From Pseudomonas sp. P8_241 (lineage in GTDB: Bacteria; Pseudomonadota; Gammaproteobacteria; Pseudomonadales; Pseudomonadaceae), in assembly GCF_034008315.1 (NCBI RefSeq), contig NZ_CP125377.1:4276501-4340500 (forward strand): a DNA stretch of 64,000 bases. The letters are read 5' to 3'. Each line of letters begins with the position of its first letter. The stretch's first letter is position 1. A model generated the notes under the pieces. That model was not told where the DNA came from and did not search any database. It saw nothing but the letters and a program-made list of their open reading frames with translations. A program made the translations under genes and the position numbers. Below, piece after piece: positions 36,527 to 47,467 of the stretch.

Positions 36527-39940
<3,414 letters not shown>

Positions 39941-39985: not shown

Positions 39986-40109
39986 CTGTCGGCAAGCCTT
40001 GAAACCTCGTGCACATCATCTACCGTTTTGTGACGCGCCATTGCAGGTGCCTGCGCGCCAGCAATGGCCATCACTGAACCCGCGACTGCCGAGTTTCCAA
40101 GGAGCCACG

Positions 40110-42185
40110 ATGGCCACCTCACCTCGCAAGGCTGCACCCGCCCGCGCCAGCACCCCAAAACCCCAACCCAAATCCAAACAGCGCACCAGCCGCGCAAAAG
40201 CCAGCGCCGAACACCTTGCCCGGCGTCGCCCGGTCTGCCCCGATCAACTGGATCTGCGTGACCGCCTCTACCAGCCACCTGTCGGCCTGCAACCGGCCAA
40301 GTCGCTGTTGCCGGCGCACTGGATGAGTATCAAGAACCAAATGCAGACCAATGCCTGCACCGGTTTCGCCTTGTCGACGGTCATCGAATTTCTGCTGAGC
40401 AAAGGCCAGCGCGAAGACAAGCCGGGCATTTCGCCGTTCATGCTCTACAGCATGGCGCGGCGCTACGACGAAATTCCCGAAGCACCGAACCCCGACCCCA
40501 AGCTGTCCGACAGCGGCTCGACCCTGCGCGGCGCACTTAAAGGCTGGTACAAGCAAGGTGCCTGCGCCTCCTATCTGTGGCCGAACCTTGACATGCCCGC
40601 CGCCACCAACCGACCCGACACCGATTGGTGGATCGACTCGGTGCAACGCCCGCTCGGTGCGTATTATCGGGTCGACCCGTTGTCGATCAGCGACATGCAC
40701 GTCGCCCTCAATGACCTCGGCGTGTTGTACGCCAGCGCCGCTTGCCACTCAGGCTGGACCATCGCCGCCAGCGAGGCTGCGCAACTCGCCGCACCGCCTG
40801 CCACGTGGGACGACTATTGGCGCATCCCCTGCCAGAAAGCCGAACTCGACGACGGCGGACATGCCTTCGTGATCGTCGGCTACAACCAGGACGGCTTTCT
40901 GATTCATAACTCGTGGGGCAGCGGTTGGGGCAGCGCCGGCTACGCGATCCTCACGTACTCCGACTGGCAGCTCAACGCCATGGACTGCTGGGTGCCACAA
41001 CTGGGCGTGGTCACCGCCGAACACATGGCGATTTCCCAAGCCTCGACGCTACGCGAAACCCCGGCGGGCAACGTGGTGGTCGCCACCTCGGATGTGCTGG
41101 CCAACCGTGAAATCAACCCGTTCATCATCGACCTGGGCAACAACGGCGAACTGAGCCAGACCGGTGATTTTCGCACGCGCCCCGAAGACGTCGAGGACCT
41201 GGTCGACTTTCACCTCGGCGAAGCCCGCAAACGCTGGGGGCTGGCGGCCAACCAGGCGATCGACATCGCGCTCTATGCCCATGGTGGGCTCAATGACGAA
41301 AAAACCGCGGCCGCCGCCGCCAAACAATGGGTGCCGCTGCTCTACGAAGCGAAAATTTTCCCGATCTTCCTGATGTGGGAAACCGGCGCCATGCAGACCA
41401 TTCTCAACCTGATCGTCGATGCCTACCGGCAAGTACCGCGCAGTACCGGCGGGGTCTTTTCGGAACTGGGCGATGCGGTCAAACAGTTTTATGACAAACG
41501 CCTGGAACGTGCCCTCGCCACGCCCGGCACACTGTTATGGGGCGAGATGAAGCAAAACGCCGATGCCTTGAGCGGCAACCCGCGCAGCGGTTTGCAAATT
41601 TTGCAAAAGGCGTTCCTTACCTCCGGCAAGATCGGCAAGTTTCGCCTGCACCTGATCGGCCACTCGGCAGGTTCCATCGTCCACAGTTTCATCATTGATC
41701 GCCTGGCGAGCGCCGGGCTGCGATTTGCCTCCCTGAACCTGATGGCACCCGCCGTGCGCGTCGACACCTTCGAGCGTTTGGTTATGCCGCACCTGATCAG
41801 CAAAACCGTGGACAACTGCCTGCAATTTTCCCTGACCGACATGGCGGAAAACCAGGACCCGACCTGCCGCCCTTACCTGCGGTCGTTGCTGTACCTGGTG
41901 TCCGAGTCGTTCGAGGCCGGCGTGCGCACGCCGATTCTGGGCATGGACAAATACATCCACGCTTCGCCGGTGTTCAACCTGCCCAACTTCACCTACATCA
42001 CCACACCGTCGAATGCGTCAATCAACGCAAGCCACGGCGGGTTCGACAACGACCGACCGACGCAACGGCGCATTGTTGAACAAGTGCACAAAAGCCTGGC
42101 GAACATCAATGGTTCGGCGGGACAGACGCCGGTCGGGGCGAAGGCACCGGCGGCCAAACCAAAAAAAGCAGCGGCGCGCAAATGA
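40110..42185 (+). CDS. papain-like C1 peptidase fused to a serine alpha/beta hydrolase
   Basis: A 691-residue soluble protein with no signal peptide. The first 45 residues and the last 20 are Lys/Ala/Pro-rich and basic. Residues about 45-290 form a papain-type cysteine peptidase: Cys83 in NQMQTNACTGFAL, His251 in GGHAFVIVGYN and Asn267 in HNSWGSGWGSAGYAIL. Residues about 370-660 form an alpha/beta hydrolase: an oxyanion-type segment ALYAHGGLNDE and the nucleophile elbow LIGHSAGS with Ser519. Both active sites look intact. The ATG at 40110 has AAGGAG before it. I know of no described family with this fusion. Flanked by the multicopper oxidase terminator and the convergent yceI-like gene, so it is probably transcribed alone. 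Confidence 0.85.
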   Translation: MATSPRKAAPARASTPKPQPKSKQRTSRAKASAEHLARRRPVCPDQLDLRDRLYQPPVGLQPAKSLLPAHWMSIKNQMQTNACTGFALSTVIEFLLSKGQREDKPGISPFMLYSMARRYDEIPEAPNPDPKLSDSGSTLRGALKGWYKQGACASYLWPNLDMPAATNRPDTDWWIDSVQRPLGAYYRVDPLSISDMHVALNDLGVLYASAACHSGWTIAASEAAQLAAPPATWDDYWRIPCQKAELDDGGHAFVIVGYNQDGFLIHNSWGSGWGSAGYAILTYSDWQLNAMDCWVPQLGVVTAEHMAISQASTLRETPAGNVVVATSDVLANREINPFIIDLGNNGELSQTGDFRTRPEDVEDLVDFHLGEARKRWGLAANQAIDIALYAHGGLNDEKTAAAAAKQWVPLLYEAKIFPIFLMWETGAMQTILNLIVDAYRQVPRSTGGVFSELGDAVKQFYDKRLERALATPGTLLWGEMKQNADALSGNPRSGLQILQKAFLTSGKIGKFRLHLIGHSAGSIVHSFIIDRLASAGLRFASLNLMAPAVRVDTFERLVMPHLISKTVDNCLQFSLTDMAENQDPTCRPYLRSLLYLVSESFEAGVRTPILGMDKYIHASPVFNLPNFTYITTPSNASINASHGGFDNDRPTQRRIVEQVHKSLANINGSAGQTPVGAKAPAAKPKKAAARK

Positions 42186-47143: not shown

Positions 47144-47467
47144 ATGAAACGCCAAACCCTTCTCGGTATCGCATTCTCGGTTTTTGCAGTCAACGCTTTC
47201 GCCGCTAACTCTGCTCACCCGGTTGTCGCTGAAGGCGGCTCGGATCGTCTGATTGAAAGCCGTGTGGCTGAGGGTGGTTCGGATCGCTTGATCGAGCATC
47301 GTGTGGCGGCTGATGGCTCCGACAAACTGATCGAAAACCGCGTCGCTGCTGACGGCTCCGACAAGCTGATCGAAAACCGCGTCGCCGCTGACGGCTCCGA
47401 CAAACTCATGCAAAACCGCGTCGCCGAAGGTGGTTCGGATCGCCTGATCGAAAACCGCACCGCCTGA
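47144..47467 (+). CDS. exported tandem-repeat protein (annotated 'phage infection protein' in Pseudomonas)
   Basis: A 107-residue protein: Sec signal peptide MKRQTLLGIAFSVFAVNAFA, then six copies of a 13-residue unit (RVAADGSDKLIEN / RVAEGGSDRLIEH) with very few changes, and RTA at the end. The mature part is thus a regular hydrophilic repeat, perhaps a beta-roll or disordered stalk. Related short exported proteins are called phage infection protein in Pseudomonas genomes; I do not know of experimental proof. Monocistronic, followed by a strong terminator. Confidence 0.8.
   Translation: MKRQTLLGIAFSVFAVNAFAANSAHPVVAEGGSDRLIESRVAEGGSDRLIEHRVAADGSDKLIENRVAADGSDKLIENRVAADGSDKLMQNRVAEGGSDRLIENRTA
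47222..47455 (+). repeat. six tandem 39-bp coding repeats
   Basis: Six direct 39-bp units, each encoding 13 residues, fill the mature part of the exported protein. Units 3, 4 and 5 are nearly identical in DNA sequence, pointing to recent copy-number change. Confidence 0.9.

Follow-up and report, generated by a model that had tools for sequence, protein, structure and literature searches.

A papain-like peptidase fused to a predicted alpha/beta-hydrolase in Pseudomonas sp. P8_241, a possible envelope-lysis effector from a widespread modular family

The 64,000-nucleotide stretch of the Pseudomonas sp. P8_241 genome analysed here (contig NZ_CP125377.1, positions 4,276,501 to 4,340,500; hereafter the window) contains on its forward strand a gene whose 691-residue product joins a papain-like C1 peptidase domain to a predicted serine alpha/beta-hydrolase. 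An earlier note on this DNA had claimed one frame joining the two enzyme halves, catalytic residues at Cys83, His251, Asn267 and Ser519, basic Lys/Ala/Pro tails and no signal peptide. The open reading frame at 40110-42185 (+) was confirmed, the four residues lie where they had been placed and are invariant in a 69-row alignment, residues 1-43 and 661-691 are indeed basic, and simple hydropathy predicts neither a signal peptide nor a membrane helix in the 691-residue protein. The rows of this alignment were picked by the analyst from 63 loci of a species-genome collection, one further genome-search locus and 120 listed proteins; a wider residue-conservation set comprised 93 C1 and 103 hydrolase rows. 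Before counting we dropped two duplicate rows (L116 of L007 and L156 of L054), two truncated at contig ends (L058, L068), four with split frames (L060-L063) and one with C1 only (L164); the wider set additionally excludes L120. The features of the gene are listed below, residue counts being given for the 69 rows and then for the wider set.

40099..40104, +: AAGGAG, resembling a ribosome-binding site, ahead of the ATG (read from the sequence)
40110..42185, +: C1-hydrolase fusion gene, ATG start, 691 residues and stop, single open frame
40110..40238, +: basic Lys/Ala/Pro N-terminal tail, residues 1-43, 28% K+R and 2% D+E
40233..41009, +: papain-like C1 half, xylellain-type, residues 42-300 (profile and alignment)
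40338..40340, +: Gln77, expected C1 oxyanion-hole residue (69/69; 93/93)
40356..40358, +: Cys83, predicted C1 nucleophile (69/69; 93/93)
40860..40862, +: His251, predicted C1 base (69/69; 93/93)
40908..40910, +: Asn267 within the NSWG motif (69/69; 93/93)
41085..42089, +: predicted serine alpha/beta-hydrolase half, residues 326-660 (alignment and profile comparison)
41280..41288, +: HGG391-393, probable oxyanion-hole motif (69, 68 and 69 of 69; 102, 103 and 102 of 103)
41664..41666, +: Ser519 of GHSAG, predicted nucleophile (69/69; 103/103)
41847..41858, +: Glu580 and Asp583, candidate triad acids (Glu 103/103, Asp 100/103)
42033..42035, +: His642 of the HGGFD motif, predicted base (69/69; 101/103, the remaining two being gaps)
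42090..42182, +: C-terminal tail, residues 661-691, basic and rich in Lys/Ala; most aligned homologues have a shorter one

By sequence comparison the first half is a papain-like C1 domain, for which peptidase activity is predicted. The Cys-His-Asn triad and the Gln are present in the C1 order and conserved within the family, and the best profile match in the PDB is xylellain, the C1A peptidase of Xylella fastidiosa (3ois; E 1.7e-23), which aligns across the entire half; the alignment includes the xylellain-like N-terminal stretch PDxxDxRDxxY and runs to the end. The 3ois chain is 291 residues long, whereas here a hydrolase follows the C1 half and, in part of the family, a wall hydrolase precedes it. 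Pfam recognises this half at the border of significance, with PF00112 scoring 20.4 bits against a cut-off of 20.7 for the single protein and 23.5 in the genome search; besides C1, the Pfam scan of the window protein returned only a sub-threshold C10 match, with no caspase and no wall-hydrolase domain. The C1 half also matches the phage peptidase family phrog_16701 (E 9.7e-11).

The second half likely adopts an alpha/beta-hydrolase fold, to judge from its sequence marks, since the GxSxG elbow, the HGG motif and the late catalytic His are all present; His391, Gly393, His518, Ala520, Gly521, Glu580 and Asp583 are likewise invariant in the 69-row alignment. Profile-profile comparison gave 78%, around the nucleophile elbow, for a set of 25 HSL-type hydrolases taken from related genomes, versus 0.1% for C1. 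The domain search of both halves suggested in the earlier note recognised the C1 half; the hydrolase half of the window protein matches no Pfam family at E 0.1 and finds its best PDB match at E 0.66. Other members match Pfam hydrolase families weakly (of 29, at most 6 match any one family, best E 1.6e-4), and one hydrolase-only relative (L004) exceeds the DUF900 cut-off. As far as these profile searches can tell, the hydrolase family is remote from the described hydrolase families.

The C1-hydrolase layout is that of a widespread family and not a single-genome curiosity. Among 8000 scored proteins we found 1886 homologues at E <= 1e-3, named in the databases as "C1 family peptidase" or "hypothetical protein". 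The 63 loci of the species-genome collection, mostly full fusions, include several proteobacterial orders and reach as far as Acidobacteria and candidate phyla, and the named holders are mostly environmental bacteria. The test set by the earlier note, that the fusion be kept in several genomes, came out in its favour: identity is 83-85% in Pseudomonas and mostly 43-55% elsewhere, down to 31%. Within the genus the hydrolase occurs in 35 of 398 sampled genomes, read as 25 C1-hydrolase, 4 GH19-like-C1-hydrolase, 1 amidase-hydrolase-caspase and 5 hydrolases without C1, two of the latter being weak matches (E 5.5e-9 and 7.4e-7). An even phylum sample gave 15 holders in 398 genomes, as 8 C1-hydrolase, 1 muramidase-C1-hydrolase, 2 GH19-like-C1-hydrolase, 2 amidase-hydrolase-caspase and 2 hydrolase only. 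The homologous N-terminal tails, of 15-80 residues, are clearly net basic in 57 of 58 cases. The window protein matches 21 plasmid records, a tblastn search of 50,697 phage records gave no match for it, and PADLOC matched neither it nor the muramidase fusion; a phage or PADLOC origin is unsupported by these searches.

From the sequence comparisons, the hydrolase is the constant part of the family, around which the other modules change: in some relatives a caspase replaces the papain-like half, and in some a wall hydrolase (muramidase, GH19-like or amidase) is added at the N-terminus, as in 5 of the 15 phylum-sample holders (1 muramidase plus C1, 2 GH19-like plus C1, 2 amidase plus hydrolase plus caspase). 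The proteins of the Lysobacter group start with an N-acetylmuramidase domain (PF11860, E 1e-53 to 1e-62), which is present in 116 of the 120 listed relatives of one Lysobacter member. Six loci (L140-143, L145 and L149, read as L112-115, L072 and L076) have a GH19-like domain ahead of the C1-hydrolase unit. All six match the PHROG endolysin family phrog_181 (E 1e-57 to 3e-24), while PF00182 exceeds its cut-off in L072 only, L076 falling just short. The amidase form carries the same hydrolase (A3 profile E 2e-57 in G182 and 6e-52 in G097), combines PF01510 and PF00656 in 101 of its 120 listed relatives, and includes one protein on a cyanobacterial plasmid. In L131, L151, L154 and L201 the same hydrolase carries a fused caspase. 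In a tree of 104 hydrolase domains, midpoint-rooted, with some deep nodes weak and one over-long row (L120, 672 residues, C1 half included), the GH19-like fusions fall in two places, the muramidase fusions in one and the amidase fusions with caspase in one. A Paracoccus plasmid (L197, 4071-6602) encodes a protein with a trypsin-like domain, a C1 domain and a degenerate hydrolase-like part in which no GHSxG or HGG was seen; a Roseivivax match is annotated much like it.

Wall hydrolases were also found encoded next to the fusion. Seeds from fused and adjacent genes were searched against all frames of the fetched loci, the window being searched separately, and a wall-hydrolase gene was detected near a C1-hydrolase gene in ten loci (L007, L010, L011, L022, L037, L045, L047, L062, L202 and L205), of which L011, L022, L037 and L202 supplied seeds and are therefore not independent finds, and L062 has its own C1-hydrolase frame split. 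The gaps, measured between stop-to-stop frames and not start codons, are 15-792 nt, except for L010, where 1455 nt with apparent regulator and transporter genes intervene; seven pairs share a strand, while the genes converge in L007 and L062 and diverge in L205. Pfam matches above cut-off identify a muramidase (L007), GH108 (L037), GH19 (L022, L045), an amidase (L202) and PG_binding_1 (L011, L047, L062, L205), with CHAP in L047 only; the L010 gene has a PHROG endolysin match (E 1e-60). In Pseudomonas vancouverensis (L007, muramidase) and Ferrigenium (L037, GH108) a holin-like gene stands beside the lysin, and the two holin-like proteins are homologues of each other (E 4.5e-18). They are labelled holin-like from PHROG matches and, for L037, also from a Pfam score below cut-off. 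A further amidase seed, from Rhizobium etli, recovered the gene it came from and gave weak matches to the L007 and L205 genes counted above. Homologous genes for a protein of about 107 residues lie between the C1-hydrolase gene and the CHAP-like/PG-binding gene in two phyla (L011, 8088-8411; L047, 8319-8636). The seeds made from a DUF1353 neighbour (R. etli) and a peroxidase neighbour (L152) matched their own loci only, and a GH19 place in G841 proved to be a separate 749-residue protein (L169, 2309-4558) beside an apparent VgrG-like frame, unrelated to the fusion.

Contractile systems adjoin the family in a few lineages. In Rhizobacter L012 the fusion gene follows by about 25 nt a tssM-tagF-kinase series (Pfam E 5e-96, 4e-42 and 9e-27) of the type VI secretion system (T6SS); the same order was read from sequence in L015, where tssM is also recognised by Pfam, and in L051, and no such series was found in Rhizobacter L016 and L056. 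In Pseudomonas G617 (L143/L212) the GH19-like form is next to a cluster of an extracellular contractile injection system (eCIS), which contains sheath, tube, eCIS_core, spike-OB and gp25 genes; no sheath homologue turned up in the flanks of the other three Pseudomonas loci of the GH19-like type. Sheath genes lie downstream of the family gene in two Nitrosomonadales bins, after the GH19 gene and with a gp19 tube gene in L045 (L211), and directly in L021. Clustering with eCIS or T6SS genes was thus seen in the relatives L012, L021, L045 and L143 and not at the window locus.

Since it is a signal-less cationic protein whose family has been joined to wall hydrolases more than once and lies near holin-like or contractile genes in unrelated lineages, we give about an even chance to the window protein being a multi-enzyme effector of envelope lysis made in the cytosol. 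With a wall-cutting enzyme fused to the unit or encoded beside it in a fair share of the relatives, the protein may belong to a modular apparatus that breaks cells open. Protein or peptide links would be the substrate of the papain-like half, lipid or other ester bonds that of the serine hydrolase half, and the wall would be cut by a peptidoglycan hydrolase. Some relatives have this third enzyme in the same chain and others encode it in an adjacent gene; in the remaining ones, the window's strain included, it would come from elsewhere or be absent. The effector would act once outside the cytosol. A contractile system (eCIS or T6SS) or a holin would let it out in the few lineages where such genes lie next to it, or else lysis of the producer would. 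We infer both activities, their substrates, the route out of the cell and the target, be it a rival or the producer. The T6SS neighbours are in favour of delivery out of the cell, whereas the caspase relatives, together with the report that the contractile injection systems (CIS) of Streptomyces mediate the death of their own producer (PMC10066040; this and the other papers cited here were covered in part), might point to the producer as the target. The suggestion of the earlier note, a toxin or a linked peptidase-lipase, was a fair guess, to which the fusion or co-location with wall hydrolases in part of the family and the contractile systems of a few loci can now be added. It is tempting to speculate further, in a tentative proposal that we hold at somewhat worse than even chances, that a widespread and undescribed class of modular "all-layer" lysis proteins is built around the hydrolase as constant core, with one slot for a cysteine peptidase (papain-like or caspase) and another for a wall hydrolase (muramidase, GH19-like or amidase, with CHAP-like and GH108 enzymes as neighbours). 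Contractile tails, T6SS or holins would deploy these proteins, and the window protein would be the two-enzyme form of the class.

Several results weigh against envelope lysis. The 63 loci divide into 4 fused to a muramidase, 8 with a nearby wall hydrolase and 51 in which neither was found, some flanks being cut by contig ends. The 64-kb window holds no homologue of the muramidase, GH19, GH108, CHAP/PG-binding, amidase and holin seeds, nor of the sheath, tube, TssM, TagF, caspase and CHAT seeds, and its genome has no match to PF11860, PF00182, PF05838 or PF00959, its three PF01510 matches lying far from the fusion gene; the effector assignment of the window protein, whose own locus lacks such neighbours, rests on homology. 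Neighbour clustering revealed no neighbour recurring across lineages, the clusters being mostly lineage synteny, and a universal operon partner was discarded. In 43 family-holding genomes, PF11860 has 7 places, PF00182 10 and PF05838 2, and 4 of these 19 lie within the fused protein and 4 at most two genes away; these three families were chosen after the neighbourhoods had been seen, and PF00959 (11 places) and PF01510 (60 places) show no link to the family in the same genomes. In the fetched flanks neither the lysozyme seed nor the first of two general amidase seeds has any match, and the second amidase seed matches the fused amidase-caspase proteins only and no neighbour gene. Therefore, the link of the family is with some lysin families and not with all. 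The four Pseudomonas GH19-like fusions, their frames cut by locus ends, have no Pfam GH19 support (best 16.8 versus 25.5 bits, three without match), and the L010 gene has no Pfam match either, so that the GH19 label of these five comes from the PHROG endolysin matches. Finally, the hydrolase fold is predicted from motifs and the 78% profile match, and lipid as its substrate is our guess.

The most serious rival, which we regard as rather unlikely, is an effector of intracellular conflict, in which peptidase and hydrolase would act inside the producer in a suicide or damage response to invasion, with the former in the role that a caspase has in known pairs. It draws on the caspases fused to the same hydrolase and on the hydrolase-only genes L158, L160 and L161 (within about 150 nt) and L157 (about 1.4 kb), which have a caspase gene and a third gene of about 535 residues nearby (the third protein has no Pfam match in L158 and no PADLOC match in L160 and L161). 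To these can be added the caspase gene preceding the C1 fusion in L046, the trypsin-like, YEATS-associated and caspase genes beside the fusion in Rhizobium leguminosarum, and the CHAT-peptidase gene downstream of it in six Achromobacter loci, identified by Pfam in one and by similarity in the others. In those six (L013, L017, L026, L027, L028 and L067) the fusion is followed by genes for a PAS-GAF protein, the CHAT-peptidase protein and a protein of about 440 residues, the last of which, taken from L013, has no match in Pfam (searched for L013 alone), PADLOC or PHROGs. In the literature, VMAP caspases are described as always having an alpha/beta-hydrolase neighbour (PMC7159879), and the alpha/beta-hydrolases of such systems have been assigned membrane-lipid hydrolysis (PMC8195603). 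Nevertheless, wall hydrolases would be idle in the cytosol, and PADLOC is silent on both the window protein and the muramidase fusion. Neither the MoxR-vWA-VMAP core and the GTPase or EAD partner of VMAP/EAD systems nor a STAND gene was seen among seven scanned neighbours of the window gene or in the gene list, the own profiles of the VMAP/EAD families not having been used. Only one of the 45 caspase places in the 43 family-holding genomes adjoins the family, so that the association with caspases is closer for the hydrolase-only and amidase branches than for the C1 branch.

An ordinary degradative pair of protease and esterase, serving nutrition or turnover and placed next to its neighbours by chance, would suit the many solitary-looking, patchily distributed copies without a conserved partner and their mostly environmental holders, but it is hard to reconcile with the missing signal peptide (by hydropathy), the separate joins to wall hydrolases and the strict conservation of both active sites, and we consider it decidedly unlikely. 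We attach still smaller probability, and call it improbable, to a self-processing zymogen whose hydrolase half would be matured or kept in check by the papain-like one, the peptidase being a built-in switch and not a weapon: peptidases of unrelated fold do accompany the same hydrolase (C1 at the N-terminus, caspase at the C-terminus or nearby), and the PDxxDxRDxxY stretch shared with 3ois would fit, whereas the existence of hydrolase-only genes speaks against it. The artefactual joining of two genes by assembly or annotation, raised as a possible refutation in the earlier note, has a negligible chance. Split frames occur in 4 of the 63 loci (L060-L063), three of them in metagenome bins, but the source genome is a single contig of 6.39 Mb in which the frame is open and the same fusion recurs in many independent assemblies, which rules out an assembly join.

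The family has features in common with several known systems. The amidase-caspase proteins reported in 2012 (e.g. in Polaromonas naphthalenivorans; PMC3501461) contain the same hydrolase domain and combine wall hydrolase, peptidase and hydrolase in one chain; they differ in having a caspase and not a papain-like peptidase, and the part of that text examined does not name the shared hydrolase. That work described four amidase-caspase proteins; one of them, which also has a GDSL lipase, was termed a highly destructive weapon. The VMAP/GTPase conflict pairs (PMC7159879) likewise bring together a hydrolase and a cysteine peptidase, a likeness of pairing to which our four hydrolase-only relatives near caspases also belong, and the papers on conflict systems (PMC7159879, PMC8195603) describe effectors of lysozyme, papain-like and lipid-hydrolysing kinds besides the pairs of caspase and hydrolase. 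The family can further be compared with phage endolysins (PF11860, GH19, GH108) and holin-lysin cassettes, since its fused or adjacent lysins match PHROG endolysin families; the window protein itself, however, had no match in the phage records searched. As with eCIS- and T6SS-associated toxins (PMC8213781, PMC11297309), genes of an eCIS, a sheath/tube or a T6SS lie beside some members of the family. A PGAP1-type alpha/beta-hydrolase is listed among the eCIS-associated toxins active on yeast, and in the portions covered the two surveys of such toxins name no papain-like plus hydrolase protein; nor was the C1-hydrolase layout found in the covered portions of two surveys of papain-like enzymes (PMC10380794, PMC10318531). 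Our literature search recognised no paper describing the C1-hydrolase fusion, subscription journals being mostly outside its scope. Within that scope the layout is apparently undescribed, the amidase-caspase-lipase "weapon" having been noted in 2012.

If envelope lysis is the function, a family labelled "C1 family peptidase" would turn out to be a lytic effector whose parts are swapped as in endolysins and conflict-system effectors. Bacterial caspase-hydrolase proteins, discussed as cell-death proteins, would then be tied to wall hydrolysis and contractile injection, and the hydrolase of the caspase proteins would gain a testable role in membrane or envelope hydrolysis, in chains that already bear their own wall hydrolase.

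At its own locus the fusion gene is probably a transcription unit by itself, as it is separated by 169 nt and a strong hairpin (-26 kcal/mol) from the stop of the gene upstream and faces a convergent YceI gene downstream. The upstream neighbour encodes a separate protein:

36527..39940, +: 1137-residue multicopper oxidase with an Ig-like (Big_9/cadherin-like) C-terminus

A multicopper oxidase gene is also found directly upstream of the fusion in L007 and L054, and a different, shorter one of 501 residues occupies the same place in Edaphobacter (L034); we rejected it as a functional partner given that the next-door cases are too few (the window, L007 and L054, the L034 type being different). 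Further downstream in the window, at 47273-47458 (+), a tandem 39-base repeat lies within a small frame and translates into a repeated VAADGSDKLIENR-like peptide.

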